A stretch of 64,000 bases of DNA from Herbaspirillum sp. Sphag64 (GTDB lineage: Bacteria; Pseudomonadota; Gammaproteobacteria; Burkholderiales; Burkholderiaceae_D), in the NCBI RefSeq assembly GCF_014192645.1, contig NZ_JACHYE010000004.1, positions 62,001-126,000 on the forward strand, written 5' to 3'. Positions 9,992 through 28,581 of the stretch are shown here, in pieces; within the stretch, counting starts at the first letter, position 1; the number at the start of each line of letters is the position of its first letter. The notes under the pieces were generated by a model. The model worked only from the letters and a program-made list of their open reading frames with translations. It ran no database searches and was not told the origin of the DNA. The position numbers were made by a program, and so were the translations under genes.

Positions 9992-9994
9992 CGC

Positions 9995-12650: not shown

Positions 12651-12912
12651 AGCGACCATTTACTACGTACGCGAGAGTATGTTGATTCTATTCCCCGTTA
12701 CGTAACTAAATATCACGCCAAGATTCCCGCTGAACAAAATTCTTAGTAGTATCTAATTTCGCGTGTCTTCTGGCTAAATAACGAGCATCAATTTGAATTT
12801 ATTTGCATTTTAATCAATATGTTTGCGAAATGATAACCGCGTCAGGTCTGAGATCGGAGAGAATATCGAGCACGATTTGCGGTTGTGATTGTTAATCTGA
12901 TATGGAGAAAAA

Positions 12913-14502
12913 ATGCCAAGCAGTTTTACCAAAAAGCGTGCACGCGATGAGAACCTCCTGGCGCAATGGGATCAACACCAGGAAGAGCACTTCCAGCGCT
13001 TTAACCTGAGTCGCGAGCAGGTCAAGTCTGCCCAGTTATCCCTGCAGGGCTACATTGTTCTGCCGGGCGACCCGCAATACGATCAAGACCGCAAGCTATC
13101 AAACGCCGCCTTTGATCCTCATCCATCCATGATTATCTATTGCGTCATCGAGAGTGATGTCGCGATTGCCCTGACATTGGCGCAACACACAACCCTGCCG
13201 TTTACCGTACGTTCGGGTGGCCATTGCACCGCGGGGTTCTCGGCCGGAAGTGGCGTGCTCATTGACGTTAGCAAGCTCAACGATGTGTACATCGATGCCG
13301 AGCGCCAGTTTGCTTCGGTGGGCTGTGGTTGCCCGTTCAGTAAATTCTCGGATGCGATGCAACGCTACGGTTTGCACGTACCCATTGGCGAATGCGAAGA
13401 CGTCTGTGTCGGCGGGTTTGTGCAGGGAGGCGGCTATGGTTTTACCTCGGTCACCTACGGCATGAACTGCGACAACGTGATCGATGTGCGCGTGATGCTG
13501 GCCAATGGCCGCATCGTGACCGCCAGCCCGACCGTCAACCGCGACCTCTGGTGGGCGGTGCGCGGCGGCACGGGCGGTAACTTCGGTGTTCTGCTGAGTG
13601 TGCGTTACCAGTTGCGCCCGCTGGGCAAGGTGTTCGGCTGGGCCATCATCTGGGCACTGGAGACCGAGCAGGACTTGGAGAATGCCACCGGTGCCTTGCT
13701 GGAACTGCAGGCCAATTACATGCTGCGCAATTCTTCACGACAGATGAATGTGCAAATTTCACTGTGCTTCCAGCCCGGCGTCGAAGGCGGTTTGCCACTC
13801 GAGAACATGAAGCCTTACCTGCTGGTGCGCGGTCTTTATGTGGGCACTGACACAGCTGGTATGGAGGCGATTGCACCGTTACAAAAACTGCCTGGCGCGA
13901 TCACGCAATGGACCATGTATACCGACTTCAACGAGCTCAACGAGAAGCTGCTCAATGTGCCCTACAGCATGCCATGCTTCGCACCAGACATCAGCTGGCC
14001 GCCTGAGGATAAGGCCTCGCGTTATGTCGCGCGTGATTTGTCGCCGCAGGAATGGCGCTCGATTCTGGATTACTACAAGCGCACGCCGAACCAGTATTCC
14101 TATGCCTATCTGGAAGTCTATGGCGGCGCCATCAATGACTATCCGGTTGAGGACAGTGCGTTCATTCACCGCAATGCGGCGTTTGACGTCGTGCTCGACG
14201 TGTTCTGGTGGACCGACGAAGAAAAGCCGCTGGCACAGGGATTCCTGGATGGCTGGATTGCCTTGTTCGAACCGATGTCGAATGGCCATATCTATCAGAA
14301 CTATCCACGTCTGAATCAGGATGACTATGGCTGGCGTTATTGGGGGGATGCGCAGAACGCCTTGTATGCGGTCAAGCAGAAATACGACCCCAGCAATGCG
14401 TTCCGTTTTGCCCAGGAGGTCACACCGAGTCTGAAGCAAGAACAGCAGGTCGCATTACCGGCAACACTGCAAGCAGCATTACATCAGCCGATCACGTATT
14501 GA
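12913..14502 (+). CDS. FAD-linked oxidase, berberine-bridge type
   Basis: This 529-residue flavoprotein has a PCMH/FAD_binding_4 domain at about residues 75-235 and a C-terminal BBE motif (YQNYPRLNQDDYGWRYWGD near 458, then YDPSNAFRF). RSGGHC near residue 97 carries the His used for 8-alpha-histidyl FAD. The Cys in PIGECEDVCVGGFVQGGG near 158 matches the 6-S-cysteinyl position, so bicovalent FAD is likely. Family members oxidise sugars, aldehydes or alkaloids with O2; the substrate is unknown here. There is no signal peptide. GGAG precedes the ATG. It appears monocistronic, between an AT-rich 262-bp upstream gap and a downstream hairpin. Confidence 0.88.
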   Translation: MPSSFTKKRARDENLLAQWDQHQEEHFQRFNLSREQVKSAQLSLQGYIVLPGDPQYDQDRKLSNAAFDPHPSMIIYCVIESDVAIALTLAQHTTLPFTVRSGGHCTAGFSAGSGVLIDVSKLNDVYIDAERQFASVGCGCPFSKFSDAMQRYGLHVPIGECEDVCVGGFVQGGGYGFTSVTYGMNCDNVIDVRVMLANGRIVTASPTVNRDLWWAVRGGTGGNFGVLLSVRYQLRPLGKVFGWAIIWALETEQDLENATGALLELQANYMLRNSSRQMNVQISLCFQPGVEGGLPLENMKPYLLVRGLYVGTDTAGMEAIAPLQKLPGAITQWTMYTDFNELNEKLLNVPYSMPCFAPDISWPPEDKASRYVARDLSPQEWRSILDYYKRTPNQYSYAYLEVYGGAINDYPVEDSAFIHRNAAFDVVLDVFWWTDEEKPLAQGFLDGWIALFEPMSNGHIYQNYPRLNQDDYGWRYWGDAQNALYAVKQKYDPSNAFRFAQEVTPSLKQEQQVALPATLQAALHQPITY

Positions 14503-14510
14503 CCGGTTAG

Positions 14511-14546
14511 CCGAAAAGCGATCAGTGCTGACTGGCCGCTTTTCGG
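14511..14546 (+). terminator. Strong hairpin after the FAD oxidase gene
   Basis: A 10-bp perfect stem CCGAAAAGCG / CGCTTTTCGG continues inward as CAGT/ACTG after a mismatch. It starts 8 bp after the stop codon. No T-run follows, so it may be a weak terminator or an mRNA-stabilising hairpin. Confidence 0.5.
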
Positions 14547-14638
14547 TGGGGGAATGGTTGCTCGCCGTCGCCTGCAAAGGTAGCGGCGAGCATGAAATAC
14601 ATCAGCTAGTCTGATAACAAAAATACTGTGTACAGAAC

Positions 14639-17600
14639 ATGACCGCTCGATACTTTTTGCTGCAACGAGAACTGCGCAGCCTTTGCCAATCCTTGCTCGG
14701 CGCGTGGATGCTGGTACTTTGCTGCACCGTTGCAACGGGAGCGCCGCTCAAGTATCCGCGCTTTCAGCAATTAGGTATCGAACAGGGCTTGCCACACGAG
14801 CTGGTGCAGACGATGCTGCAAGACCGGCAGGGATTCATCTGGATTGGCACCCAGAGTGGGCTGGCCCGTTACGACGGGATGAGCATTACCTATTACCGCT
14901 CCGATGTAAATAAACCGACCAGTCTTGCTGCGCCCTGGGTAACGGCGCTGTTCCAGGATGCCAAGGGTGAACTTTGGGTTGGCACGCGGGGCGGTGGCGT
15001 GATGCGCTACAACCCGGCAGATGAAAGCTTTATCCGCTACAGCAACGATACCAAGGACTATCACGCCCCCTCTGCTAGTAAGCAGATTCTCGCGATCAAG
15101 GGAGATGGTACGCATGGCATCTGGCTGGCAACCCTGGACGGCCTCTGGCATCTTGATATCGACAGCGGTAAATTCTCGGTTTTGCGCCACGATCCCAATC
15201 AGACAACAAGTCTCTTGAGTGATGAAATACGCGATCTGGTACTGGATGCGCGCGGCAACCTGTGGGTTGCGACGCCGATCGGACTGGATCGGCTGGCGCC
15301 AGGCGCGACGACGTTCGAGCACTTCCGTCTGGATGACGGTGCCATGGCCGATAGCAAGTTCAACGATATTCGCTCGTTGATGGCAGATCGCAATGGCGGA
15401 CTCTGGATCGGTACCGCTGCCGGCGTCGAGTTATGGTCCAGCAACGGCAGCAAGCGGCGTTTTGGCACCAAGGAAGGCCTGCAACCCGGCATCATTACCG
15501 CGCTCTATCAGGACCAGGACGAGGCTATCTGGGTTGGCACACAGACTGATGGTCTGAAGCGCTGGGATCCGAGTGCGGAGCATTTTCAGTCCTATCGCAA
15601 CCAGCCCAGCGACCCGCACAGTCTGGCCGATAATCGTATCGTTACCTTGCTGCAGGATCGATCCGGGGTATTGTGGGTAGGCACCTGGAATCGCGGGATC
15701 AGCCGGGTCGATTTGCTGGGTGGTGGCTTTGACCGCTTTGTGCATCTGGCCGGTGAAGCACACACGATTGGCGAAGGTCGCATTCAGGGTTTTGCCGTCG
15801 CAGACCATGACAAGATATGGATGGGTACCGCTGAAAATGGACTCAATCGCATGGATCGCCGCACCGGCGAAGTCGAGTCCTTCATGCATCGGCCGGGAGA
15901 CGCGAATAGTCTGAGCTCCAATACCGTGCGAGCGGTGCAAGTCAATGCCGAAGGTGTCTGGATTGGCAGTGCCGGCGGCCTCGATCTGCTCGACCCGGCC
16001 ACTGGTCGCTTCACTCATTTCACACACGATCCAACCAACCCTAATAGTCTTGGCTCCAATCAGATCTACACGATGATGTTTGATCATCAAGGCATATTGT
16101 GGATCGGTACCATGGATGCTGGCCTGGATCGTTTTGATCCGGCGCGCCGGACCTTCCAGCATTTTCCACATCGCTCGGATGACCCCACCAGTATCGCCAA
16201 TCCCTGGGTGTTCACCCTGATGGAAGATAGCAAGCACAATCTATGGGTAGGAACGGCTTCCAGCGGGCTGGATCTGTTTGATCGCAAGACCGGTCGTGCA
16301 GAGCATTTTCAGCGCGACGAAAAAGATCCCACCAGCCTGAGCCAGAATACCGTCACGCAATTGCTGGAAGACCGTTCAGGTACGCTGTGGGTAACGACGA
16401 CCACAGGTCTTAATCGCGTCTATCGTGATGCGCAAGGGCGGATCCGTTTCAAGCATTACACAGTCAAGGATGGCCTGGAAAATGACGTCATTCTGGATAT
16501 TCAGGAAGATGCCAAGGGATATCTGTGGATGGGCACCAATACCGGCATGTCACGCTTCGACCCGGTCCATGAGAGCTTCCGTAACTTTACCTCTGCCAAT
16601 GGCCTCATTGATGGTACCTACATGGTCGGTGGCACGTTCAAGGATCAGGATGGCCGGATGTACTTCGCCGGTACGCGCGGCCTGAACATCTTTGATCCCG
16701 GAGCCATTCGCGACAATAACGTACAGCCACAGGTGGTACTGACCGACTTTTTGATTTTCAATAAATCAGTACGTGGTGCTGGCGACATGAATGGCTTCAG
16801 CATCGATGGTGCGGTCAACCATGCGGGCAAAGTCACGATGTCCTATCGCTACTCCGTCTTTTCGATCGAGTTCGCGGCGCTGCATTTTGCGGACCCGTTA
16901 CACAATCGTTACGCCTACAAGCTGGACGGTTTCGACAAGAACTGGGTCTATACCGATGCCAACCACCGGGTCGCCACCTATACCAACCTGGAACCTGGCA
17001 AGTATGTATTCCGGGTCAAGGCAGCAACCAAGGAGGGCAGCTGGAACGAGCAGGGCGCCAGCCTGATCATTGTGATTACACCACCGTTCTGGAAAACCTG
17101 GTGGTTCCGTCTGCTGGTTGCCGTGATCGTATTGGGGAGTACCTATTTAGCCTATCGTGCACGGATCAGACACTTCGCGCAGCAACAGATCCGCCTCGAA
17201 AAGCTGGTGCTCGAACGTACCGCTGAAGCGACTGCAGCACGCGCCGTTGCCGAGCGTAAGAGCACGCAGGTCAGTACCTTGCTGGATAACTCGGGACAGG
17301 GCTTTTTGTCCTTTGCGGCCAATCTGCGGGTGGATCCTGAATATAGTCTCGAGTGCCACAAGATCTTTGATCGCGGCATTGAGGATGTCTTCCTTCCGGG
17401 GCTGCTGTATGACGATGACAAGCAGCGCACCTATATCGAAAAAAATCTGACCCATGTCTTCCGTTGCGGTGACGATCTGAACCGGCGTGAAATCTACATG
17501 GAATTACTGCCGACCGAATATCGTCTCTACGGTCGTGACTACGACGCCAAATACCGTTATCTCAGCGACCATCGGATCATGATGATCCTCACCGACATCA

Positions 17601-18751
17601 GCGATGCCAAGGCCTTGCAGGAACGGATCGAGCAGGAGCGCCAGCGCCTCGACTTCCTGGTCAATGCGATGGAAAACCGCAACGATCTGCTCGACACCCT
17701 GCAGGTATGGCAGCAGTTCCATCAAGAAGTCCTGCCATCACTGTTGCATAGCGACGCACCGGCAGACCAGCTGCTCATTGAGATACACCGCGAAATTCAT
17801 ACTTACAAAGGATTGTTCGCCCAAGAAGGCCTGCCCTCCATGCCTGTCGTATTGCATGAGCTGGAGGATGCACTCGCCGATCTTGCTGAGCATGACGACA
17901 TCGATAAGGAAACACTGATCCGTACGCTCGACCTGAGCGATCTGCGCACGCCGATGGAAAACGATCTGGCCCTCTTGCGTGAAAAGCTCGGCGCGGCCTA
18001 TTTTGCCGCGGACAAGTTAATTCAGATCAAGGTCAGTGCGCTCGAACGCATCGAGAAAGCGATACAGGCCGTCATCGACGCCCGCATTGCAATCGGGACA
18101 GAATTGGCCGAGGCACTGCAGGAGGCCTGCAGTCAACCGCTGTCGGCGTTGCTGTTGCCGCATTTTAAGGCGGCGGCACAGCTTGGGGAACGTCTGGGCA
18201 AGCATGTGGCACCGTTGCGCTTCGAGGGCGACGATGTGATGGTTGATCCGCGCCTGCTGTCACCGTTCTGCAAATCGCTGGTGCACGTCTTCCGTAATTG
18301 TGTCGATCATGGCGTTGAGGACGTAGAAACCCGATTGCGTGCTGACAAGGATGAGATGGGACGCATCCATTGCCGGGTCCAGCAAGATGGCGAACAGGTC
18401 CTGTTGTGTATCGGCGACGACGGCTATGGTATGGACAGCGATGACATCCGTGGTCGCGCCGTGGAAAAGGGTTTGTTGACCACAATCGAAGCTGCGGCCC
18501 TGAGCGACGAAGAGGCATTACGTTTAATATTCCTGGATGGCTTCTCGACCCGTGATCAAGTCACGCAGATTTCCGGGCGCGGCATCGGATTGGCAGCTAC
18601 ACTTCAGGAGATAGAAAAATTGGGCGGGTCAGTGGCGGTCGTGACGCAGCCCGGCCGTGGCACCGAATTCCGTTTCAGTATTCCATCGCAGTTAATCGTT
18701 GGTCTGGCACAGCAGGAATGGAGGCAGATGCATGAGTTTGAGCAGCAGTGA
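14639..18751 (+). CDS. Beta-propeller sensor kinase with CheA-like output
   Basis: This 1370-residue membrane sensor has an N-terminal export signal (residues 1-37), then a long array of Reg_prop beta-propeller repeats (about 40-700; recurring GxLWVGT-type blades), a Y_Y_Y domain (about 745-812), one membrane segment (about 820-842), a short coiled coil and a variable linker. The output end is unlike the usual HisKA form. REIHTYKG, with His near 1054, looks like a CheA Hpt site. The ATPase domain (about 1160-1360) has a CheA-type N box FRNCVDHGVED near 1216 and the G box SGRGIGLAATLQ near 1312. No CheW-like domain follows. It overlaps a CheX-like gene and is followed by a CheY. The ligand is probably periplasmic; polysaccharide breakdown products are typical for this propeller type (inference). 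Confidence 0.87.
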   Translation: MTARYFLLQRELRSLCQSLLGAWMLVLCCTVATGAPLKYPRFQQLGIEQGLPHELVQTMLQDRQGFIWIGTQSGLARYDGMSITYYRSDVNKPTSLAAPWVTALFQDAKGELWVGTRGGGVMRYNPADESFIRYSNDTKDYHAPSASKQILAIKGDGTHGIWLATLDGLWHLDIDSGKFSVLRHDPNQTTSLLSDEIRDLVLDARGNLWVATPIGLDRLAPGATTFEHFRLDDGAMADSKFNDIRSLMADRNGGLWIGTAAGVELWSSNGSKRRFGTKEGLQPGIITALYQDQDEAIWVGTQTDGLKRWDPSAEHFQSYRNQPSDPHSLADNRIVTLLQDRSGVLWVGTWNRGISRVDLLGGGFDRFVHLAGEAHTIGEGRIQGFAVADHDKIWMGTAENGLNRMDRRTGEVESFMHRPGDANSLSSNTVRAVQVNAEGVWIGSAGGLDLLDPATGRFTHFTHDPTNPNSLGSNQIYTMMFDHQGILWIGTMDAGLDRFDPARRTFQHFPHRSDDPTSIANPWVFTLMEDSKHNLWVGTASSGLDLFDRKTGRAEHFQRDEKDPTSLSQNTVTQLLEDRSGTLWVTTTTGLNRVYRDAQGRIRFKHYTVKDGLENDVILDIQEDAKGYLWMGTNTGMSRFDPVHESFRNFTSANGLIDGTYMVGGTFKDQDGRMYFAGTRGLNIFDPGAIRDNNVQPQVVLTDFLIFNKSVRGAGDMNGFSIDGAVNHAGKVTMSYRYSVFSIEFAALHFADPLHNRYAYKLDGFDKNWVYTDANHRVATYTNLEPGKYVFRVKAATKEGSWNEQGASLIIVITPPFWKTWWFRLLVAVIVLGSTYLAYRARIRHFAQQQIRLEKLVLERTAEATAARAVAERKSTQVSTLLDNSGQGFLSFAANLRVDPEYSLECHKIFDRGIEDVFLPGLLYDDDKQRTYIEKNLTHVFRCGDDLNRREIYMELLPTEYRLYGRDYDAKYRYLSDHRIMMILTDISDAKALQERIEQERQRLDFLVNAMENRNDLLDTLQVWQQFHQEVLPSLLHSDAPADQLLIEIHREIHTYKGLFAQEGLPSMPVVLHELEDALADLAEHDDIDKETLIRTLDLSDLRTPMENDLALLREKLGAAYFAADKLIQIKVSALERIEKAIQAVIDARIAIGTELAEALQEACSQPLSALLLPHFKAAAQLGERLGKHVAPLRFEGDDVMVDPRLLSPFCKSLVHVFRNCVDHGVEDVETRLRADKDEMGRIHCRVQQDGEQVLLCIGDDGYGMDSDDIRGRAVEKGLLTTIEAAALSDEEALRLIFLDGFSTRDQVTQISGRGIGLAATLQEIEKLGGSVAVVTQPGRGTEFRFSIPSQLIVGLAQQEWRQMHEFEQQ

Positions 18752-19295
18752 CATTCACAAGACAATTGAAATCGTTGCGTCTGATGCGCAGAAATATTTA
18801 AAATCAACACATCGAATTCAGTGTGTTGCCCAGCCAGCCGTCAGCGGCAAGGCCGATGCGCTTGCATTGCGCGATGTGACGGCGATCATTGGACTGGGTG
18901 GGGCCATCAGCAATCTGGTCACGGTCAGTTTTGATCATGCCTTGCTGGCGTACCTGCTCAAGCAGGAAATGGAAGGACTGGTCGTGCCACCTGAGGAGCA
19001 TGACTTGTACATGAACGAAGCTGCTGCCGAAATTTCCAATGTCATCCTCGGGCACTGTCTTGCCTATCTGGAGGACATGATGGCAAACCGGCTGGATGCA
19101 GAAGGTGGCAGAATCTCCATGTCACCGCCGGTGGTGATACAGAATGTCGGCAGCATGCACCAGGCGCATAGTGCAGCCTATACCAGTGTTGCGCTGGTGA
19201 CCGACTTTGGTTACCTGGTCTTGAGCATTATCTGGCCCTATGCGTTGTTTGAAAAAGTATCGAATGGATTGAAGGCAAGGGGAAAGAGTACATGA
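18732..19295 (+). CDS. CheX/CheC-like chemotaxis phosphatase
   Basis: This 187-residue CheX-like protein overlaps the last 20 bp of the sensor kinase and overlaps the following cheY by 4 bp. The helix NEAAAEISNVILGH near residue 98 contains the ExxN motif used by CheC/CheX to dephosphorylate CheY-P, and a PP pair follows about 29 residues later. The expected role is phosphatase for the adjacent response regulator. GGAGG lies just before the chosen ATG; an alternative start 33 bp upstream lies deeper in the kinase gene. Confidence 0.8.
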   Translation: MSLSSSDIHKTIEIVASDAQKYLKSTHRIQCVAQPAVSGKADALALRDVTAIIGLGGAISNLVTVSFDHALLAYLLKQEMEGLVVPPEEHDLYMNEAAAEISNVILGHCLAYLEDMMANRLDAEGGRISMSPPVVIQNVGSMHQAHSAAYTSVALVTDFGYLVLSIIWPYALFEKVSNGLKARGKST

Positions 19296-19675
19296 AGCAG
19301 CTAAAAATCATGGTGGTTGATGATGCGTTGCTAAGTCAGAAAAAACTGATTGCAACGCTGGAAGAACTGGGGCATGCCGTTGTTGCCGCCGCCAACAGCG
19401 GAACCAAGGCGCTCACAGCCTACGAACATTACCGTCCTGATCTGGTCACGATGGACATCACCATGCCGGAAATGGACGGTATCGCCGCCACGCGCTGGAT
19501 TTTGGGTAGGCACCCGGAGGCCCGCATCCTGATCGTCACCTCGCATGCGGAAAAGAATACCGTCCTCGATGCGCTCGAAGCCGGTGCCAAGGGCTACATC
19601 ATCAAGCCATTCCAGGCCGATAAACTACGCCAGGCAATCCGCCGCGCGATGACCGCCTCAGAGATCAGTCCCTGA
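19292..19675 (+). CDS. CheY-like single-domain response regulator
   Basis: This 127-residue receiver-only protein has the acidic pair in VVDDALLSQ (residues 8-16), the phospho-acceptor Asp in MDITMPEMDG (about 54), the Thr/Ser switch in IVTSH and the conserved Lys in YIIKPF (about 105). No output domain is present, so it signals by protein contact, as CheY does. The start ATGA overlaps the cheX-like stop. It is probably the phosphorylation target of the upstream CheA-like sensor and the substrate of the CheX-like phosphatase. Confidence 0.92.
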   Translation: MKQLKIMVVDDALLSQKKLIATLEELGHAVVAAANSGTKALTAYEHYRPDLVTMDITMPEMDGIAATRWILGRHPEARILIVTSHAEKNTVLDALEAGAKGYIIKPFQADKLRQAIRRAMTASEISP

Positions 19676-19753
19676 GCATCATTTCTGAGGCGGCGAACAA
19701 AACGGCAATGCCTGGACGTTAGCGGTCAGAGGGCATTGATCAATAGTCAGTGA

Positions 19754-21427
19754 TCAATGAATGACCATCAAGGTGAACGGCCAGACATAGGCTTGTAGCG
19801 TCACCAGAATGCCGACCAGGCACGCCAGAATCACGGAATGCAAGAAGACGAAGCGCAGAATATCGCCTTCGTGATTGAACCAGCGGGTTGCGGTAGAAGC
19901 CACCACGATCGACTGCGCATCAATCATCTTGCCCATCACACCGCCAGCGCTGTTGGCAGCACCCATCAGATTGGCCGGCAAGCCCAGCTGCTCCGCAGCC
20001 ACTTTCTGCATCCCACCGAACAGAACATTACTGGCCGTATCTGAGCCGGTCATGGCAACGCCCATCCAGCCCATCAAGGTACCAAAGAACGGATAAAGCG
20101 CTCCCGAATGCGCGAACGCCAGACCCAATGTGGTATCGGTGCCTGAATAACGGGTCAGCGTCCCCAGGCCCAGCATCAACACGATGGTCATCAACGAATA
20201 ACGGACCAGCCAGAAAGTGCGCAGATACACGCTGACCACTTGCCACGGACGATACTTCATCACCAAGGCCCCTACGACCGCTGATAACAGAATGCCGGTA
20301 CCGGTCGCAGAGAGCAGGTTCAAGGTATAGATGGCCGCCTCATTGGTCGGCTTGCTCACCACTGGCGCCACTTTCTGCACCATGTTATGCAATCCATCGA
20401 TCGGGAATTTGGCAATAAAGAGATGGTCGAGATAAGCTTTTACCGACGGCAGACCCCAGATAAAGACGAAAACCGTCAGAATCATCCACGGCGTCCAGGC
20501 GCGCACCAGCTCACCCTTGCTGTATCGGGTAACAGCCGTTGCCGATTCTGCTGCAGCAGCAGAAGCAGTCGCTTCCTCTGCATGGCCACGCAGCGCCACG
20601 GACGTCCAGATCTGTTTGGGTTGCCAGATACGCAGAAAGCCGATCAGACTCGCCATCGACACAATCGCCGAGATGATCCCGACCAGCTCCGGCCCAATGA
20701 AGTTGGACACCAGATATTCCGGAACCGCAAAGCTGACCGCTGTCACCAGAATCGCAGGCCAGATTTCCAGCATGGCTTTACGGCCAGCGAATGCCCAGAT
20801 CAGCCAGAACGGAATCAGCAGCGAGAAAAACGCCAGTTGAATACCAATCGTTGCCGTCACAGCACTTAGATCGTAGCCGTGCACTTTCGCCAGCGTAATG
20901 ACGGGTGTGCCCAAAGCACCAAAGGCAACCGGTGCAGTATTGGCGATCAACGTCAGGCCAGAAGCGGCCAGTGGCGAAAAGCCCAGGCCGATCAAAATGC
21001 CGGCAGTCACCGCGACCGGTGTACCAAAGCCCGCCGCCCCCTCAAAGAAAGCGCCGAAGCAGAACGCAATCAGCAACAACTGCAGACGACGATCCTTGGT
21101 AATACTGGAGAGTGAATCCTGCAGAATCTTGAAGCTGCCATTTTGCTCCGCCAGTTGCTGCAGAAAGATGATGTTCAGCACAATCCAGCCGATCGGCAGC
21201 AGCCCGGTTAAACCGCCCAGAAATGCCGCCTTGCCCGCCATCGCAGCAGGCATGCCGTAGCCCAGCACGGCAATTGCCAAAGCACTGCATAAACCCAGCG
21301 CCGCAGCGATATGGGCCTTGATATGCAAAAAACCCAGGCACACCAGCATCACCGCCACTGGCACGGCGGCCAGCAGCGTAGAGACAAGCATATTGCCGAA
21401 TGGATCGTAAATCTGTTGCCAACTCAT
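19754..21427 (-). CDS. lldP: L-lactate permease
   Basis: This 557-residue membrane protein of the LctP/GlcA family has about 12-14 hydrophobic segments and imports L-lactate (also D-lactate or glycolate) with protons. Family landmarks are GFGTPVAVTAGILIGLGFSPL near residue 133, APVAFGALGTPVITLAKVHG near 165 and NLMGAANSAGGVMGKMIDAQSI near 478. No lactate dehydrogenase gene is adjacent. The upstream region holds an unusual set of GGCGAGC repeats described separately. It faces the CheY operon convergently. Confidence 0.93.
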   Translation of the reverse strand: MSWQQIYDPFGNMLVSTLLAAVPVAVMLVCLGFLHIKAHIAAALGLCSALAIAVLGYGMPAAMAGKAAFLGGLTGLLPIGWIVLNIIFLQQLAEQNGSFKILQDSLSSITKDRRLQLLLIAFCFGAFFEGAAGFGTPVAVTAGILIGLGFSPLAASGLTLIANTAPVAFGALGTPVITLAKVHGYDLSAVTATIGIQLAFFSLLIPFWLIWAFAGRKAMLEIWPAILVTAVSFAVPEYLVSNFIGPELVGIISAIVSMASLIGFLRIWQPKQIWTSVALRGHAEEATASAAAAESATAVTRYSKGELVRAWTPWMILTVFVFIWGLPSVKAYLDHLFIAKFPIDGLHNMVQKVAPVVSKPTNEAAIYTLNLLSATGTGILLSAVVGALVMKYRPWQVVSVYLRTFWLVRYSLMTIVLMLGLGTLTRYSGTDTTLGLAFAHSGALYPFFGTLMGWMGVAMTGSDTASNVLFGGMQKVAAEQLGLPANLMGAANSAGGVMGKMIDAQSIVVASTATRWFNHEGDILRFVFLHSVILACLVGILVTLQAYVWPFTLMVIH

Positions 21428-21486
21428 GAAGATCTCCCAATGACTGTTTTGATTTTGTTGTTGTGTAGTGTTGTAGTACGCTGCCC

Positions 21487-21540
21487 GGCGAGCAGAGATA
21501 GGGCTCGCCGTGACCGATGATCGACGTCACCTCGGCGAGC
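21487..21540. promoter_or_regulatory. Triple GGCGAGC/GCTCGCC repeat upstream of lldP
   Basis: GGCGAGC occurs at 21487-21493 and 21534-21540, and its reverse complement at 21503-21509, so two alternative hairpins can form. The inner pair is extended by GTGAC/GTCAC around the loop. It lies 60-113 bp upstream of the lldP start on the opposite strand, where an operator or a leader structure would be expected. No T-run accompanies it. Confidence 0.45.
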
Positions 21541-21656
21541 ATTATCGACACTCCATCAACATCCGAATTGAAAGATTCTCAAGCGACTGATGATTAAAAT
21601 TTGTCTGAAGGAGAGTGCGACTGTGGTTCAGGTAGCCGCAGCGGGGAAGTACCATG

Positions 21657-21680
21657 AAAAAAGGGGCGCTTGGCCCCTTG
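21657..21680 (-). terminator. Rho-independent terminator of the methyltransferase gene
   Basis: Read on the minus strand, a stem AAGGGGC / GCCCCTT is followed by T's (AAAAAA at 21657-21662 on the plus strand). It is 50 bp downstream of the methyltransferase stop. Confidence 0.8.
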
Positions 21681-21730
21681 ATGTCACTCCTTTTCTAACA
21701 CTGCGCGATAAAAACGCTTCAGTGCTCCGA

Positions 21731-22408
21731 TCAAGCTTTCAGCGCCATGCAAATACCCTCGCCAAATTCCAGCGTGTCAATTCTCGACTGGTATTTCGAT
21801 TCAGCCTGCTGCGTAGTCTTGATCGCGGTTTCATGAGTCAGGTCAACCAGCGACTTCACAAAACCGACCATACCGAAATCATGGCTTGGCAGCCGTTTAG
21901 GTAAATTGTTGGCATGCACCGCGATGGGGAACTCTTGAAATCTGGAGCCATCCGGAAAACTATCCCAATAACCGGTTCCCCAATCTTCAATGAAATAGGC
22001 ACCGCCTTTTTTCACAAACGGAAAGACGGCATCGAAGGTTAACTTCGAGAAATAACCAAAATGCGAGGCGTCCTCAATCACCAGATCAATGCCCTCCGGG
22101 AAATGCGTCAAGATGATCTCGGCAAGCTGAGCCGCCTTGGTTTGATCTGCCTGCAAATAGGTGATATTGGGAAAGGCGGAAAAATCGATATTGCGCAATT
22201 CAATATCCAGCGCCACGATTTTTGCCTCGGGAAATGCACGCGAAAACACTTTCGTGCTTTCTCCCTGATAGGTGCCGATTTCTAAAATGCTACGGGGTGA
22301 AATGCCATGGTGACTCAGGAATTGCTGGTACTTTTTATAATAATGTAATGGCTTTGTCGTGGGGTCAGCGGAGTGCGTGGCGCTGGCAATACTGAAAAGA
22401 GTCGACAT
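21731..22408 (-). CDS. Class I SAM-dependent methyltransferase, target unknown
   Basis: This 225-residue Rossmann-fold methyltransferase has motif I as ILEIGTYQGESTKVF near residue 41, an acidic motif II in IVALDIELRN, then YLQADQT and, near 109, DLVIEDASHFGYFSKLTFDAVFPFVKKGGAYFIEDW. The last blocks resemble the Methyltransf_24 group, including sugar or polyketide O-methyltransferases whose DxS-H residues bind a metal. No biosynthetic cluster surrounds it, so the substrate cannot be named. Own terminator downstream. Confidence 0.82.
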   Translation of the reverse strand: MSTLFSIASATHSADPTTKPLHYYKKYQQFLSHHGISPRSILEIGTYQGESTKVFSRAFPEAKIVALDIELRNIDFSAFPNITYLQADQTKAAQLAEIILTHFPEGIDLVIEDASHFGYFSKLTFDAVFPFVKKGGAYFIEDWGTGYWDSFPDGSRFQEFPIAVHANNLPKRLPSHDFGMVGFVKSLVDLTHETAIKTTQQAESKYQSRIDTLEFGEGICMALKA

Positions 22409-22541
22409 GAAGTGCGTTCCATTGTGGGGAGTAGGAAAAACGTCTCTGTATCAAGCTACGGACGGTAGCGGCCCGGTGCTGCCAATCTATTCGTTGCGCT
22501 GATTGCCGTCAACTCGCCGTGGTTATTTGGCAAACCACAAA

Positions 22542-22569
22542 CTTGCACGGTCTCTCCGCACCGTGCAAG
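22542..22569 (-). terminator. Hairpin downstream of the 113-residue gene
   Basis: A perfect 10-bp stem CTTGCACGGT / ACCGTGCAAG with an eight-base loop lies 19 bp past the stop codon. On the minus strand only a short T-run (TTTG) follows, so termination would be weak. Confidence 0.5.
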
Positions 22570-22587
22570 CCCCTCCCGGAATATCAA

Positions 22588-22929
22588 TTATTCATCCCAA
22601 AACTTGTTCAGCCGCGCAATGTGTTCCTCAGACACATCACGCAACAAGGTCGCTGCTGCCAGCGAGAGGCGATACAGGTTAACGCTATCGGACTTCCCAA
22701 TCGATGGCGCGGCCTCCGGTTCAGAATCGGCATCCGCATCCTGATTCAATTCATTGGCCAGATCACGCGCATAGACGATTTGCATGCAGGAGGTAATGCC
22801 GGCACTGATGTCGCGGGTGAGTTCGATGAAGTCAGCGAATTTTTCCTCACGACCGGGGCCGTGAATCCAGCGGAAATCTTCGTGGGTTGGTGGGATAGGG
22901 TGTTGATTTGATGCGGTGGTATTGGTCAC
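22588..22929 (-). CDS. Small uncharacterised protein (113 residues, GTG start)
   Basis: The reading frame is open further upstream, but the GTG at 22929 is preceded by GGAGG and gives a compact acidic protein. Visible parts are a Pro-rich start (residues 7-11, HPIPP), EDFRWIHGPGREEKFADFIE in the first third, a helical middle with a single Cys and an acidic linker (DADADSEPEAAP) before a helical tail. No family was recognised. It lies beside an IS256 remnant and shows no signal peptide or membrane segment. Confidence 0.6.
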   Translation of the reverse strand: MTNTTASNQHPIPPTHEDFRWIHGPGREEKFADFIELTRDISAGITSCMQIVYARDLANELNQDADADSEPEAAPSIGKSDSVNLYRLSLAAATLLRDVSEEHIARLNKFWDE

Positions 22930-23261
22930 ATAGCCTCCATTAATTGCACAAGAGACCCGTACCTCACTTCCCAATGAGGTGGCGGGTGCATGACAAAGTG
23001 GGAAGTACCGAGAAAGCAACGACCATCGGCAAGCCCGAAGGCTTCTCTGCCAAGACCCGCCGTTGAATAGACGTGCCTGGACAAACGAACAAAAAAATAG
23101 CCGCATTGCGGCTCGTTCGCCGTTACTTTCATCGAGCTTCCCAACTCGGTCCCGTCTTTTTCCGGGACGTGTACAGTATGGATTGATTGATCTGGAGGCG
23201 TCAAGCGCCGTTGTTTAAGCACTGTTGCTTGAGGTAATAGTGAAAAATGGTTGAATGCCGT

Positions 23262-23604
23262 TTTCATGTCGAACCCGGCCCAACGCGTCTGATGCTTGGA
23301 CACCAGCTTCGGTTCGAAGCTGCCATGACCGTCGCGGGGAATTTTAATCGGCAGCTCACCAAATTCACCCTTGAGCGTCTTGCGACTCTTGCCGTTCCGC
23401 GTGTTGTCCATATCATTGGAGACGCTTCCATGCTTGTCATGACCGAGGTGCTCGCTCAGTTCGGCTTCAAGCGCCCGTTCCAGCATCAGCTTGGTGAGAT
23501 GTTTCAACAGGCCTTTCTTCACCTATTAAATCTTCTGGATTCTTGTAATTGGCTAGCAATCCAGCCAGTAGTTCTTCTTGTACGTCGTGTTTCTTCTTAC
23601 TCAT
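23262..23604 (-). pseudogene. IS256-family transposase remnant (N-terminal part, frameshifted)
   Basis: From the ATG at 23604 the frame reads MSKKKHDVQEELLAGLLANY then KNPEDLIGEE, after which one extra base breaks it. The next frame carries on with the family N-terminus: GLLKHLTKLMLERALEAELS, EHLGHDKHG, RNGKSRKTLKGEFGELPIKI and HQTRWAGFD. Homology stops at about 23262, before the DDE catalytic core. Upstream (23630-23660) the sequence contains GTGTAAACG on the minus strand, similar to IS256-type ends. It is clearly inactive and marks the left side of the AT-rich island. Confidence 0.85.
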
Positions 23605-23916
23605 TGTTGCTCCGGACAAGGCGACAGTTTCCTGTCAATAGTTCGTTTACACAAAATTATGTATAGGCCCGAGCTACCCGCGAAACTCCATGTTTACGCG
23701 GCTTTATTGGGAGTAGACAAATGAGACCCACTATATGTAAGAGAATTTTTGAGGCGGATATTTTTTCGAGCTTTTTGAGGACATGCAACCTGCCAGGGTA
23801 ATTTACACACTAACCCTTGTCGCCCGCGATACCGAGAAATCATTCAATGATAAAATTTTCGTAACTATTTGGTGCGAAGATATTTCAGATATATCAAACA
23901 ATCACTGGCGGGGGCT

Positions 23917-25593
23917 ATGGGGTACATTGCAAAGTCAAAAAAAGAACTCGGGTATACAGACAACAAAGAAATTCAAATCGAGTTGATAAAAGCAATTGAA
24001 ATCGGGCGCTTTAGGTCTTTTAGTAACCGCACGGTCGAATTAGGTAGCCATATCACGGTGCTTGTTGGTCGCAATGGCTCGATGAAGACTTCATTGATGG
24101 GGCTCATTGCGCATCCATTTTCCAGTGAGTCGAAAGATGCCTTCGGTCGTGAGCTAAAAACAACGCTCAAAGAGGTATTCAAGCTATCCGAAATCTACGA
24201 TCGAAATGATTATTCCTATAACTTGATCGTAAAAACCACCAAGGAAGAAGAGCTTCTCAAAGAGGAAGTCAAGATTTACTACGTCGCAAACTCTACCAAT
24301 CGACATCGTGTTGTGATGTCTGGAGCGGAAAAAGGGGACGGAAATTTTTCATACAATACGTCGTTTTTGAATCTAAAGCGTCTTCTCCCTTTGGTTGACA
24401 CAAAAGCTAGACCAGATATGGGGGAGGAATTTTCTCTCACCGAAAGAGAGCGGGCTGAGCAGAAGAATTTTTATGAATTTGTTCTGCCAAGCACCGATTA
24501 TGGTGTGTTTGCGCCGATTCATCAAAAAGGTCAAAAGACAACTTTTGCGCCGACTGGTGAAAATGCTAGATATGATTATGAATCGATTTCTTCGGGCGAA
24601 GATAATCTAGGTGCGATCTTCAACAAATTAATCGGGTTTCAGAGGGCGTTTCCGAAAACTGGCAATGTTGGGAATGGAATATTCTGCATAGATGAGTTTG
24701 AAAGCAGTCTTCACCCCGTAGCCCAGTTAAATCTATTTCGATATTTGTATGATTGGTCAGCGAGATATCGTGTTCAAATCGTAATAACGACGCATTCTCT
24801 TCATCTAATACAGGACATCTATTTGAATCATAAACATAATTTGGACTCAAAAAGAGTCGTTATTAATTTTGTTAGTGGATCCTCTGCTGCAGAAGACCGA
24901 AACTACCCAATCATTGTTAACCCAGAATATCAATTAGCGTATCAAGAGCTAACCCTTGTACGTCCTGAGGATGTCGCTGAATCGCAAAAAATCGATGTTT
25001 TTTGCGAAGATCCTATCGCGATTCATTACGTCAAGCGGCTGATTAAGAGTTCGGAAGTGCTGAAGTTGGTGTCCTTTCACAGCAACCTCAATCAAGAAAC
25101 TAGCAATGAGGGTACGCCATACTCGTCGTTGGCAAGTCTATGTAAGAACTTCTCCCTCCTACTCAAGAATTCATTCGTTATCTTCGATGCTGATGTTCCC
25201 GAAGGCGTAACCAAGGCCATTAAAGATAAAGGTACCTTTATGCTCGTCCCTGATGCTGACAAGCTCGCGCTGGAGCGACGAATAATCTGTTTTATTCTCG
25301 GATTGCCTAACGACCATGAATTCTTCTTGCGCTTTAGGCGTGAGAAGACCGCAATACTAAATGATATGAAGAGAGCTGGAGTTTCGTCTCTCACGATAGC
25401 TGATGTGATGGACGAAAAGAAGGTCGCCATCGGTCAGTGCAAAAAATGGGTCGAAAGGCACGAGGCAGATTTTAAGAAGTATGTCACTTACTATTGCGCC
25501 CAGCTTGGAGAGCGCGAGATTTTTGTAAAAATGTTTGTTGAGCGGATCAACCTTATTAATACTCGAAAGGGGTTACCCCTTGTCGCTGCATGA
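23917..25593 (+). CDS. AAA ATPase with TOPRIM-like C-terminus (OLD-like), island gene 1
   Basis: This protein of about 558 residues has an SMC/OLD-type ABC ATPase fold. The N-terminal strand block IKAIEIGRFRSF leads to Walker A GRNGSMKTS (residues 51-59), where Met replaces the usual Gly before the Lys. Walker B with the signature Glu is FCIDEFESSLHP (about 255), followed by VITTHSLHLIQ (His switch). The tail (about 355-450) has VFCEDP and VIFDADVPEG, resembling the acidic metal sites of OLD-family TOPRIM nucleases. This is a pattern-level match. Start: the ATG at 23917 follows a G-run; TTG/GTG codons at 23869-23872 are alternatives. It is AT-rich compared with the chromosome and is followed after 92 bp by the ParB-like gene. 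Confidence 0.82.
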   Translation: MGYIAKSKKELGYTDNKEIQIELIKAIEIGRFRSFSNRTVELGSHITVLVGRNGSMKTSLMGLIAHPFSSESKDAFGRELKTTLKEVFKLSEIYDRNDYSYNLIVKTTKEEELLKEEVKIYYVANSTNRHRVVMSGAEKGDGNFSYNTSFLNLKRLLPLVDTKARPDMGEEFSLTERERAEQKNFYEFVLPSTDYGVFAPIHQKGQKTTFAPTGENARYDYESISSGEDNLGAIFNKLIGFQRAFPKTGNVGNGIFCIDEFESSLHPVAQLNLFRYLYDWSARYRVQIVITTHSLHLIQDIYLNHKHNLDSKRVVINFVSGSSAAEDRNYPIIVNPEYQLAYQELTLVRPEDVAESQKIDVFCEDPIAIHYVKRLIKSSEVLKLVSFHSNLNQETSNEGTPYSSLASLCKNFSLLLKNSFVIFDADVPEGVTKAIKDKGTFMLVPDADKLALERRIICFILGLPNDHEFFLRFRREKTAILNDMKRAGVSSLTIADVMDEKKVAIGQCKKWVERHEADFKKYVTYYCAQLGEREIFVKMFVERINLINTRKGLPLVAA

Positions 25594-25685
25594 GGTGAGA
25601 ATTCATTTGCCGATTTATTAGACACTCGCAGGTGGCATAGGTTGTTGTATGCTTTATCGGAAATATCAGGATGTAGGGGGGATTG

Positions 25686-27020
25686 ATGACGTATGCCGTG
25701 AAGAAGATAAAGCTGAGTCGTGTTTATTTGGATAATGCTAATCCGCGACACGATCCGATTGAAAATGAGTTGGAAATAATTGCGTATCTCATTGAAAAAG
25801 AGAACGTGAAACAGCTTGCGAGACATATTTCGGAAGTCGGTGGAACTAGTCCGCTTGAGCGGATTGCTGTATTCCCACATCCAAAAATAAAAGATGCTTT
25901 CATTGCGGCAGAGGGGAATCGCCGCGTTTGTGCTTTTAAGTTATTGGCAGATCCCGATAAAGCAAATACTGAGGCGAATAAAAAATACTTTCGGAAGTTG
26001 GCCGCCAATATGGAGAGGGTGCCGAACGCATTCGAAATGGTCGTATTCGAGGATAGAAAAGAGTCACGAAGCTGGATATCTTTGCGGCACGAGGGCGAAC
26101 AAAATGGTATCGGCACACGCACATGGGATGCAAGGCAAATCACGCGATTTAATGCGCAGTCAGAGGGGGCATCTAACCCTAATATTCAGGCTTCTCTTTT
26201 AATCGAATATGCCCGAAGGGAACACTTGCTTAAGGCGGATCGCATAGATGAACTTAGCATTACCACGCTGACTCGATATTTGAGCAATCCAGTCTTTAGA
26301 CACGTTCTCGGGCTGATCGATACCAAAACTCTCACGATTAGTGTAGCTGTGGAAGAGTTTAATCGCGTCGTGATAAAGTTTCTAAACGACGCATTGGATC
26401 CAGCCAGCGAGGTGGGATCGCGAAGTACCGCAGCAGATCGCAAGGCTTATGGTGAGAAACTGCGCAATGATGGAGTGGCGCCGTCGAATTATGGACTTAC
26501 CCCTGTGGATTTAGGCACACGTCAGCCTAGGGACAGTTCTTCAACAGAAAAAGGCGGTGAGGCAGTTCTTCCTTCTGTTCGCAACAATCCTAGTCCAGAT
26601 AAGAGGAGATCTGTGATTCCCTCCGATTTCTCAGCACGAATTACCGACAAAATACTGAAGCGTCTGTACGATGAGCTAAGGGCAATAGATGCGGAACAAT
26701 ATAGTTTTTCGGCAACATATCTCCTGAGGGCTGTGATTGAACAGGCGGCAACTATTTATCTCAAGAAGAATGGTCGGGCGGCGCCGAAAGAGTTGCACCA
26801 GCGGCTGGGAATTGTTGCTGATTTATTGTCAGCTGACGGATTCACGGAGCGCGAATTGAAAAGTTTGAGGGTGATGGCGAATGATAAAGATAGTAGATAT
26901 TCGCCTGATTCTATTGGACATTTTGTCCATGGCGGAATGATTCCTACGAAGACTTACGCTATCAAAGCATGGGATTCCATCGAGCACGTTTTGCTTGCTC
27001 TATTGCGGAAGATTGCATAG
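25686..27020 (+). CDS. ParB/sulfiredoxin-fold protein with helical C-terminus, island gene 2
   Basis: This 444-residue protein starts with a ParB-like N-terminal domain (about 1-115): VYLDNANPRHDP, then SPLERIAVFP, then the ParB box AAEGNRRVCAFKLL near residue 75. Unlike chromosomal ParB there is no recognisable helix-turn-helix centromere-binding region. The middle (115-245) and a charged low-complexity linker (about 250-310) precede a helical C-terminal domain (SFSATYLLRAVIEQAATIYL near 340, GHFVHGG near 415) that resembles HEPN/DUF4145-type folds only by pattern. In other families this fold binds CTP or acts as a nuclease; activity here is unknown. A G-rich Shine-Dalgarno precedes the ATG. 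Confidence 0.75.
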   Translation: MTYAVKKIKLSRVYLDNANPRHDPIENELEIIAYLIEKENVKQLARHISEVGGTSPLERIAVFPHPKIKDAFIAAEGNRRVCAFKLLADPDKANTEANKKYFRKLAANMERVPNAFEMVVFEDRKESRSWISLRHEGEQNGIGTRTWDARQITRFNAQSEGASNPNIQASLLIEYARREHLLKADRIDELSITTLTRYLSNPVFRHVLGLIDTKTLTISVAVEEFNRVVIKFLNDALDPASEVGSRSTAADRKAYGEKLRNDGVAPSNYGLTPVDLGTRQPRDSSSTEKGGEAVLPSVRNNPSPDKRRSVIPSDFSARITDKILKRLYDELRAIDAEQYSFSATYLLRAVIEQAATIYLKKNGRAAPKELHQRLGIVADLLSADGFTERELKSLRVMANDKDSRYSPDSIGHFVHGGMIPTKTYAIKAWDSIEHVLLALLRKIA

Positions 27021-27066
27021 AGTGCAGGTCCTGTCATTGGTTAGCGCTTAATTGGTTTACGTAGAA

Positions 27067-27939
27067 ATGCCAATCACAAATACACCCTTGAGGTATCCAG
27101 GCGGGAAAAGCCAATTGGTGCCATTTATCATCGAGCTCATTCGAGAGAATGATCTGTTTTATGGCGAATATGCAGAACCGTTTGCAGGCGGGGCAGGCAT
27201 AGCCGTGAGTTTGCTGCTAGATGGATATGTCGACAAAATTTACCTGAATGATTTTGACCCTGCAATTTATGCATTTTGGTCTGCCGCTCTTAATCACACC
27301 GATGCGCTGTGCAGCAAAATTGAGAGCACCAAGGTGGATATGGATGAGTGGCATAAACAGCGCACAGTGTATTTTTCTGATGACGAAGATGTAGTCAGCA
27401 AGGGATTTGCTACGCTTTTCTTAAATCGTACAAATCGATCTGGAATTATTAAGGCGGGCGTAATTGGGGGGCTGGCTCAAACAGGCAACTATAAGATGGA
27501 CTGCCGCTTCATCAAGCCTGAATTGATTCGAAAGATAAGGCGCATAGCAGGCTATCGAGAGCAGATATCATTAACTTGTTTAGATGCTGTTGATTTTATT
27601 AAAAACGTCTTGCCAAAAACCGCAGAAAAAACATTGGTAAACCTTGATCCGCCTTATTTTGGTAAAGGCCCCGAGTTGTACGCGAATTTCTATACTGCTA
27701 AGGACCATGCCTTGCTAGCAAAGTCTGTCCATAAGATCTCGCGGCGCTGGATGGTTACGTACGACGATGCCTCCGAAATACGTGATTTATATAAAAAATA
27801 TCCTATGTTTAGCAGTAGTTTGAATTATTCTGCACAGACAAAAAGGGTTGGCACAGAACTTATGGTGCTGGATCCCAAGTTGCGTGTTCCAGAGTCAATT
27901 CGAACATTTAAAATTGAAGAGCAAAAGATCGCAGCCTGA
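27067..27939 (+). CDS. D12-class DNA adenine methylase, island gene 3
   Basis: This 290-residue DNA N6-adenine methyltransferase is of the MethyltransfD12 (Dam-like) family. It opens with the class signature TPLRYPGGKSQLVP. Motif I is AEPFAGGAGIAVSLL (about 37-51) and the catalytic motif IV is LDPPYF (about 192). A family-typical middle includes FLNRTNRSGI near 126. The target site cannot be read from sequence; GATC is common in the class. It lies 46 bp after the ParB-like gene. A TTG 15 bp upstream of the chosen ATG is possible but less likely. A methylase with two putative nucleic-acid enzymes suggests a self/non-self modification role. Confidence 0.88.
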   Translation: MPITNTPLRYPGGKSQLVPFIIELIRENDLFYGEYAEPFAGGAGIAVSLLLDGYVDKIYLNDFDPAIYAFWSAALNHTDALCSKIESTKVDMDEWHKQRTVYFSDDEDVVSKGFATLFLNRTNRSGIIKAGVIGGLAQTGNYKMDCRFIKPELIRKIRRIAGYREQISLTCLDAVDFIKNVLPKTAEKTLVNLDPPYFGKGPELYANFYTAKDHALLAKSVHKISRRWMVTYDDASEIRDLYKKYPMFSSSLNYSAQTKRVGTELMVLDPKLRVPESIRTFKIEEQKIAA

Positions 27940-28505
27940 TTCAAGATTATGGCGAGGATTTATTTTGCAACTAAGACTTCGATCAGAAGGCTGGCTTCCT
28001 AGTTTGAGTCGTTGTCGGTGTGCTAATTCGAGTCATCTTCACATGCACAATCTTACGCTGCGGGATGAAACGTCGGAATTTTTGCGCCACACCGCCTCAT
28101 GGCTCGATTAAGGTTGAGGCGTAGTTCAGCAATGAGCTACAAGAAGAAGTGGTATGTTCCATTTTGGAACATGCCACCGGATCAGCGCAGAGCGGAGGCA
28201 TAAAAAGTACGAGAAAACGCAATTCATCTATTAGGGAGTTTCAATAATTTCCCATGGAGATTCTGAACTCATCAGAGAAGCTTGATCGACTTATCGTTTC
28301 GTTAAATTGGTCAATCACCCATTTGACCTTCCTGAAAAAATGAGGGCTATCAACGGTCTCATCAGCATGCACTCGTAAGGCTTCTCGATATTGCCCGACG
28401 TCATTTTTATAACTTTGATGGGCACTCGCGAGAATGTCGTCTTCTAAGTGGGCGAAAACATTTATACGAAAAAAAGGCCTAGCCGAAGCTAAGCCTTTAT
28501 ATTCT
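27940..28505. other. Gene-poor stretch between island genes and tRNA-Phe
   Basis: No convincing gene was found. It holds a micro-ORF at 28132-28203 (MSYKKKWYVPFWNMPPDQRR plus a few residues), which encodes an 11-bp hairpin at 28151-28175 (GGTATGTTCCA / TGGAACATGCC, one mismatch). On the minus strand an open frame of about 75 codons (28241 to about 28480) without its own start runs out of the tRNA and reads like the truncated tail of a protein. The mix of fragments is typical of the junction end of an integrated element. Confidence 0.5.
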
Positions 28506-28581
28506 TGGTGGCCCGGGGCGGAATCGAACCACCGACACAAGGATTTTCAATCCTCTGCTCTACCGACTGAGCTACCAGGCC
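28506..28581 (-). tRNA. tRNA-Phe (anticodon GAA)
   Basis: Seventy-six bases on the minus strand fold as a full cloverleaf: acceptor GGCCTGG pairs with CCGGGCC, the anticodon loop is TTGAAAA with anticodon GAA, the T loop contains GGTTCGATTCC, and CCA is encoded at the 3' end. The 3' end faces the AT-rich island, the usual orientation for an integration site. Confidence 0.97.

Follow-up and report, generated by a model that had tools for sequence, protein, structure and literature searches.

A stretch of 64,000 nucleotides (nt) from Herbaspirillum sp. Sphag64 (contig NZ_JACHYE010000004.1, positions 62,001 to 126,000; hereafter the window) carries a cassette of three co-directional genes that encode an OLD-like ATPase with a TOPRIM domain, a ParB-fold protein and a D12 DNA adenine methylase. 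The cassette spans 23817..27942 (+), which is the block that the window has in common with Herbaspirillum sp. ASV7, and ends 3 nt past the methylase stop codon. The ATPase-TOPRIM gene lies in an open reading frame (ORF) at 23869-25593 (+), which opens with TTG at 23869 and has its likely start at ATG 23917 (558 amino acids, aa). The ParB-fold gene follows in the ORF 25683-27020 (+; likely start ATG 25686), and the methylase gene in the ORF 27052-27939 (+; likely start ATG 27067). All three start codons were chosen from the sequence and from relatives.

An earlier description of this DNA, made from the letters and the ORFs alone (the sequence-only reading), had placed three co-directional genes between an IS256 remnant and tRNA-Phe, and the ORFs, a match to Transposase_mut and the tRNA called by ARAGORN gave the same arrangement. 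We measured the same spacings as it had given, with 92 nt between the ATPase and ParB genes and 46 nt from the ParB stop codon to the methylase ATG. The trio had also been called AT-richer than its neighbours, and the G+C content of the block was indeed 0.439 vs 0.549 in the rest of the window; the minimum elsewhere in the window, over 201 overlapping stretches of the same length as the block, was 0.517. The view of the trio as defence-like likewise stands.

The ParB-fold protein and the methylase correspond to PD-lambda-5

The ParB-fold protein matched the PADLOC model PD-Lambda-5_A (PDLC04013) with an expect value (E) of 1.8e-168 (559 bits, profile positions 1-439 of 440), and the methylase matched PD-Lambda-5_B (PDLC04018) at 1.7e-122 (406 bits) over nearly the whole profile. 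By these nearly full-length matches of two adjacent, co-directional genes, genes 2 and 3 are assigned to PD-lambda-5, a named system. The available text of Vassallo et al. (2022; PMC9519451) describes it as an E. coli defence system recovered by phage selection that lowers phage plating. The window cassette differs from it by the additional OLD-like ATPase upstream. A wholly unnamed trio was therefore rejected; the word "undescribed" in the sequence-only reading fails for genes 2 and 3 and holds for the ATPase gene, which is outside the named system.

That the third gene encodes a D12 DNA adenine methylase was borne out by its match to Pfam MethyltransfD12 (2.2e-20). It also matched the PADLOC MTase_II model (402 bits), and its D12 motifs are kept, with the DPPY catalytic motif (27646..27657, +) invariant in 13/13 sequences.

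Pfam gave nothing for the ParB-fold protein at E values of 1 or below, and in the same range its profile matched a single solved chain, a histone H2A entry at 0.012, which was taken as chance. The AlphaFold model of this protein (mean predicted local distance difference test score, pLDDT, 87.9; predicted template modelling score, pTM, 0.56) was more informative. Residues 3-140 (25692..26105, +) are modelled as a ParB/sulfiredoxin, nucleoside triphosphate-binding fold, which VIA-align superposed on ParB 7bm8 with Z 9.6 over 99 residues (root-mean-square deviation, rmsd, 2.5), and the motif EGNRR is invariant in 32/32 sequences. Residues 318-444 (26637..27017, +) were aligned with the HEPN entry 2hsb at Z 9.5 (117 residues, rmsd 3.1), with further HEPN entries at Z 7-8.5 and HepT-type entries at Z 8.4-8.5, values that may be unspecific in helical parts when below about 13. 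By Foldseek alone, ParB entries were at the top with E ~1e-3 and HEPN entries appeared only at E >1. The C-terminal part is thus likely, short of proof, to be HEPN-like, given the limited specificity of such Z scores; its H415 is invariant in 32/32 sequences, but conservation is lacking for the arginine usual in HEPN domains. The sequence-only reading was therefore right about the ParB fold and incomplete in its "helical C-terminus", which appears HEPN-like rather than merely helical.

The upstream gene encodes an OLD-like ATPase-TOPRIM protein

The product of the first gene matched Pfam AAA_15 (2.3e-18) and phrog_3940 (3.4e-77). Its P-loop, GRNGSMKT (24067..24090, +), has methionine in place of the final glycine, and its Walker B motif is CIDE. 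In the methylase-linked ATPase clade described below, five rows (L138, L139, L152, L153, L190) keep glycine at the last P-loop position and most have M, S or Q there; one row outside that clade likewise has no last glycine. The TOPRIM acidic residues, E364 and D424xD426 (25006..25194, +), are invariant in 13/13 aligned sequences. In Foldseek searches with the structure model (mean pLDDT 82.1, pTM 0.79), the top two entries were GajA (8u7i, E 2.5e-12) and OLD (6p74, E 4.7e-11), with whole-length TM-scores of only ~0.3; the VIA-align rows covered mainly the ATPase half. The TOPRIM call follows from the invariance of E364, D424 and D426 together with the matches to GajA and OLD. On sequence and model, gene 1 is classed as encoding an OLD-like ATPase-TOPRIM protein and putative nuclease, much as the sequence-only reading had it (an AAA ATPase with an OLD/TOPRIM-like tail).

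As in OLD-family nucleases, an ABC-type ATPase and a TOPRIM domain with E...DxD are joined in one protein, for which DNA cleavage is a prediction. Four OLD classes are given in the available part of a review (PMC10568477), i.e., class 1 as a single gene, class 2 with a UvrD-like helicase, class 3 with a reverse transcriptase and class 4 as the split PARIS. The window cassette is neither single-gene nor split, and its D12 methylase partner is a context outside these four classes as described there. Unlike Gabija (class 2), it has no UvrD/PcrA/Rep-like GajB among its three genes, the gene next to the ATPase being that of the ParB-fold protein. Unlike a retron (class 3), it has no reverse transcriptase among these genes, and Rfam revealed no non-coding RNA in the window beyond tRNA and a C4 RNA. 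HEC-04/IbfA (PMC12111858), which interferes with phage, is likewise of ATPase-TOPRIM type; in the text available it is described as one gene, and a methylase partner is not named there. The window ATPase matched the PADLOC HEC-04 model weakly (4.8e-15, best stretch 45 residues).

Related ATPases are paired with a methylase in the absence of a ParB gene

ATPase-methylase pairs without a ParB gene, with a methylase of the PD-Lambda-5_B family, were found in Citrobacter phage phiNP and two streptococcal phages; such pairs also occur in three genomes (G288, G373, G730) and in IMG/VR contigs. Six phage records had an ATPase match, of which four were inspected, the remaining two being Javan645 and a second ValB1MD-2 record. 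Flanks of 1.5 kb were used for most loci from the genome searches. When the ATPase of G288 was used to query a plasmid collection, all seven matching records (7/7) had a methylase beside the ATPase and no ParB gene: A. baumannii (2), Psychrobacter (2, one with the ATPase split into two ORFs), Staphylococcus hominis, Nicoliella, and Fusobacterium, the last with a short ATPase ORF and the methylase ~547 nt off. Three records filed as plasmids in PLSDB (NZ_CP077849.1, NZ_CP064203.1 and NZ_CP084075.1; L079, L264, L260) are of 3.66, 3.97 and 2.11 Mb, a size which suggests that they are chromosomes under a plasmid label.

Among complete E. coli genomes, 135/5426 had a match to the phiNP pair, and in 85/5426 the match covered ≥80% of that pair. 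All 20 matches listed carry the annotation of an AAA family ATPase plus a DNA adenine methylase, and both of the two E. coli loci examined adjoin a phage integrase. The pair extends to Bacillota and Fusobacteriota records besides E. coli. Of the IMG/VR loci collected by ATPase profile (n=15), 11 had an intact methylase, which adjoins the ATPase except in L144, where it follows the ParB gene; in the others (L140, L146, L150, L151), the methylase is weaker, partial or broken, or the ATPase is broken.

For phylogenetic analyses, 49 ATPase rows were collected at ≥100 bits and ≥300 aa, and four duplicates were left out. In the resulting tree (tree 1, n=45), the methylase-linked rows formed one clade (100/99), with a methylase at 22/22 members vs 0/23 rows outside, three of the 22 (L140, L146, L150) carrying a methylase labelled "other or broken" and L127 (genome G555) being counted as "outside, none" by relabelling. 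A second, quick tree (tree 2, n=41) gave 24/24 clade members vs 0/17 relatives outside, with the same three rows in the count. For tree 2, the long-branch rows L087, L088, L089, L094, L096 and L127 were left out, L004 was trimmed at its 5' extension, and two loci found via ParB, L190 and L239, were included. The broken ATPase of L151 was set aside. Seven weak matches from the order sample (L158, L161-L164, L168, L170) fell below the cut-offs, none with a methylase match in its locus, and the plasmid-collection records stand outside both trees. A clade-wide link between ATPase and methylase is thereby established.

Within the class sample, 15/266 genomes had the methylase at E 1e-60 or better. 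It lay beside a ParB-type gene in 13 (one a weak match of 32 bits, another the window itself), beside the ATPase in one, and in one was a broken remnant with neither partner. Model PDLC04018 scored 411 bits with the methylase of the E. coli pair, 370 bits with that of G288 and 406 bits with that of the window. Since it also matches the methylases of ATPase-methylase pairs, PD-Lambda-5_B alone is not diagnostic of PD-lambda-5, and partial "PD-Lambda-5" calls may hide an ATPase-methylase system. In PADLOC-DB 2.0.0 (2023), the E. coli ATPase from such a pair had nothing above 71 bits among the matches listed (25 of 37), and searches of an open-access library, which mostly lacks subscription papers and preprints, found neither the pair nor the trio named. 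The pair is apparently an unnamed two-gene relative.

The trio has been assembled repeatedly

The order ATPase-ParB-methylase was found in the window, ASV7 and the IMG/VR loci L144 and L190. L144 shares 52% (ATPase), 22% (ParB) and 49% (methylase) identity with the window and has gaps of ~15 and 93 nt; those of L190 are ~37 and 72 nt. The trio with the ATPase reversed is present in Vibrio phage ValB1MD-2, where ParB is split into two ORFs, and in L239, whose methylase is 88% identical to that of this phage. Co-occurrence of the three families elsewhere, on which the sequence-only reading had hinged, was thus found in ASV7, in viral contigs and in the Vibrio-phage type, and the ATPase has a methylase link of its own besides. 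As judged by eye, the trio of L144 (IMGVR_UViG_2890308702_000001, 7733-10519) adjoins putative P2-type portal and terminase genes; a P2 defence hotspot was traced via the portal gene by Vassallo et al., in the text available (PMC9519451).

Among viral ParB loci (n=69), a methylase lay within 600 nt in 63 and none was found in six, two of which end at the locus edge. In the methylase tree, the window grouped with the ParB-only loci L117 and L119 (99/96) and L144 with the ParB-only locus L031 (99/98), whereas the ATPases of the window, ASV7 and L144 formed one clade (100/99). Forcing the methylases of the latter three into one clade was rejected (approximately unbiased, AU, test, p 1.2e-145), so the ATPase and methylase have not had a single history in common. 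Since the methylase groupings differ while the ATPases form a single clade, the same type of ATPase has been placed on different PD-lambda-5 pairs. The trio label required four changes on a larger, quick methylase tree, three of them forced by starred branches, and three on ATPase tree 2. Near-duplicate loci were skipped in the methylase trees, and L127 was relabelled ParB in the first and left out of the larger one. Taken together, the data establish repeated assembly of the trio.

Several candidates were rejected as members. In L127, the ATPase lies 1.5 kb off and belongs to a distant AAA type; the ATPase matches near L032, L125 and L128 reached 24 bits, that of L125 being UvrA-like by eye. 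At L127:11561-13878 there is a PD-lambda-5 locus, and the other ATPase ORF 1.5 kb downstream is directly followed by a 288-aa ORF; these two are possibly another pair of ATPase-TOPRIM type. Single-sequence scans of viral contigs and an A5 scan yielded no relatives, and ASV7 was the only one in a single scan of genome contigs. Kosakonia PD-lambda-5 DNA gave only short methylase matches in E. coli (3/5426 genomes), where the reference locus was not located.

The cassette is shared as a unit with Herbaspirillum sp. ASV7

The ASV7 proteins are 86% (ATPase), 91% (ParB) and 92% (methylase) identical to those of the window. By blastn, the DNA is 83% identical over 23817-27815 (L004/L045) and 84% over 27844-27942 (L240), the latter being the end of another ASV7 contig that was taken as the continuation of the match (last 99 nt). 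Nothing in the window outside 23817-27942 matched the ASV7 loci compared at E 1e-3. The sites also differ, with an IS256 remnant and tRNA-Phe in the window and trmB (by eye) and tRNA-Gly in ASV7; because the ASV7 cassette sits 5' of tRNA-Gly, tRNA targeting is not common to both copies. Adapter-like and poly-G sequence, as judged by eye, is present at the ASV7 contig ends (L045:1-100, L240:9190-9364) inside the methylase gene, which makes the last methylase codons of ASV7 unreliable.

The ratio of nonsynonymous to synonymous substitution rates (dN/dS) between the two copies was 0.037 for the ATPase, a rough value because its dS of 2.18 is near saturation, 0.091 for ParB and 0.056 for the methylase. 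From these sequence comparisons, purifying selection appears to act on each of the three genes, and these ratios indicate that the locus is more than a chance arrangement. The cassette is a unit.

Flanking features

To the left of the cassette, and outside it, lies an IS256-family remnant (23268..23670, -; Pfam Transposase_mut), copies of which in the genus are 89-94% identical. Its segment at ~23280-23519 encodes the N-terminal ~80 aa of a transposase of Mutator type (match to Transposase_mut at 1.8e-15, profile 22-100 of 379). The right neighbour is tRNA-Phe (28506..28581, -; ARAGORN). In blastn comparisons with 34 genomes of the genus, matching DNA in other genomes begins at ~28466-28510 and extends rightwards; the left flank at 12000-22500 has kilobase-scale matches in one other genome (G004) and short pieces only elsewhere. 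Insertion by a tRNA integrase was rejected as an established fact, as there is no integrase among the three genes of the cassette and nowhere in the window is the tRNA-Phe end repeated over more than 12 nt. Several other genomes of the genus (G024:C1:4790313-4822858, G008:C5, G028:C1, G018:C1, G001:C14) have fragments of the tRNA-Phe 3' end at distances of 2-32 kb from this gene, which appears to be a hotspot for integration in the genus; the fragments are as expected of stacked islands.

Farther left, a C4 antisense RNA (RF01695, 51.9 bits, gathering score 45) was detected at 22975-23067 (-), upstream of a small ORF (22588-22932, -), and with tRNA it made up all Rfam matches at gathering scores across the window. 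The longer ORF 22588-23106 had no Pfam match. The element at 22558-23180 has copies of 77-86% identity on contigs C2, C3, C9, C24 and C27 of the same genome; together they form a dispersed family of repeats with a regulatory RNA of phage type at its core.

A probable composite cassette with one methylase

We favour, as the reading that is probably correct, a composite anti-phage cassette of PD-lambda-5 and an OLD-methylase system in which both effectors would rely on one D12 adenine methylase. PD-lambda-5, i.e., the ParB/HEPN-like protein with the methylase, would be the first module; the second would be the OLD-like ATPase-TOPRIM nuclease. Relatives of this protein are normally encoded immediately 5' of a methylase of their own from the same family. 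The methylase, a probable self-mark, would modify its site in host DNA. Nucleotide-dependent sensing of DNA would fall to the ParB-fold protein, with its HEPN-like part as the toxic end, and both this protein and the OLD-like nuclease would stay idle on marked DNA. Unmarked phage DNA or a failure of methylation would cause the two effectors to fire, upon which the OLD protein would cut DNA and the HEPN-like domain would halt the cell.

That the methylase marks self while the other two proteins sense or cut unmarked DNA was already the hypothesis of the sequence-only reading and is also our best guess. We infer that one methylase serves as self-mark or antidote for both effectors, and likewise the effectors' cleavage targets, their reading of the same mark, and defence in this host. 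Our confidence is evenly divided on the wider proposal that a common methylase is the self-mark or antidote of two effectors that are unrelated and exchangeable, that the OLD-methylase pair forms a widespread and unnamed defence system of its own, and that trios arise repeatedly by stacking. The predicted arrangement resembles type II restriction-modification in that an adenine methylase of site type has a putative nuclease as its partner, and differs from it in that the partners, as predicted from the genes, are an ATPase-TOPRIM protein and a ParB-HEPN-like protein.

Several observations weigh against the composite. An ATPase was present in only 3/69 viral ParB loci, and among the PD-lambda-5 loci taken from the class and order samples an ATPase of the clade was found only at that of the window, several of the other loci ending at a contig edge just upstream. 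Since most PD-lambda-5 loci do not have the ATPase, it is dispensable for PD-lambda-5, which favours stacking over a strict machine of three parts. The reversed ATPase in L076 and L239 fits two neighbouring systems equally well, and the 92-nt gap before the ParB gene has room for a separate promoter (a simple scan found none there). The absence of the canonical arginine makes RNase activity of the HEPN-like part doubtful. The counts of 22 and 24 methylase-linked ATPases are weakened by the three "other or broken" rows, and that of tree 1 also by L127, which has a PD-lambda-5 methylase 1.5 kb away.

The main rival is that these genes are neighbours without a shared function, i.e., that an OLD-like ATPase landed upstream of a complete PD-lambda-5 and functions independently of this methylase. 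Defence genes cluster in islands, and both the absence of the ATPase from most PD-lambda-5 loci and its convergent orientation in L076 and L239 agree with such an origin. However, some piece of a methylase lies near all 24 clade ATPases and in 7/7 plasmid-collection records, the ATPase-ParB-methylase order recurs in three lineages with first gaps of ~92, 15 and 37 nt, and ASV7 has just these three genes in common with the window. We therefore regard two independent systems as unlikely.

Less probable again is a guard function, in which the ATPase, keeping watch over the methylase of PD-lambda-5 or over anti-restriction proteins of phages, would fire only when a phage blocks the first line. PARIS is said, in the source text available, to act as a backup upon BREX or restriction inactivation, and its ATPase AriA was the best PADLOC match of the window ATPase by E-value (6.9e-20, 70 bits). 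PARIS combines the AriA ATPase with the TOPRIM protein AriB, separate or fused, and the match of the window protein to AriA falls on ATPase parts. Its best stretch has only 93 residues of a generic ATPase model, however, and in the window the ATPase and TOPRIM domains are on a single ORF with a methylase as partner; moreover, the two-gene loci hold no other effector to guard. The logic of a methylase plus a toxin resembles restriction-modification addiction, and several copies adjoin phage integrases or recombinases. An addiction or stabilisation module of mobile DNA, with the effectors as toxins silenced by the methylase and phage defence secondary, is nonetheless the least probable of the three, given that E. 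coli PD-lambda-5 came from phage selection (PMC9519451, in the text available) and that the window cassette is without an integrase and appears to be under purifying selection.

If the composite reading is correct, the methylase would be the constant component and the effector the exchangeable one, the reverse of the way in which PD-lambda-5 is currently filed. Apparently orphan PD-Lambda-5_B methylases would thereby be explained, and OLD-like nucleases would gain a genetic context beyond the four classes set out in the available part of the review (PMC10568477). What PD-lambda-5 senses would then become testable.

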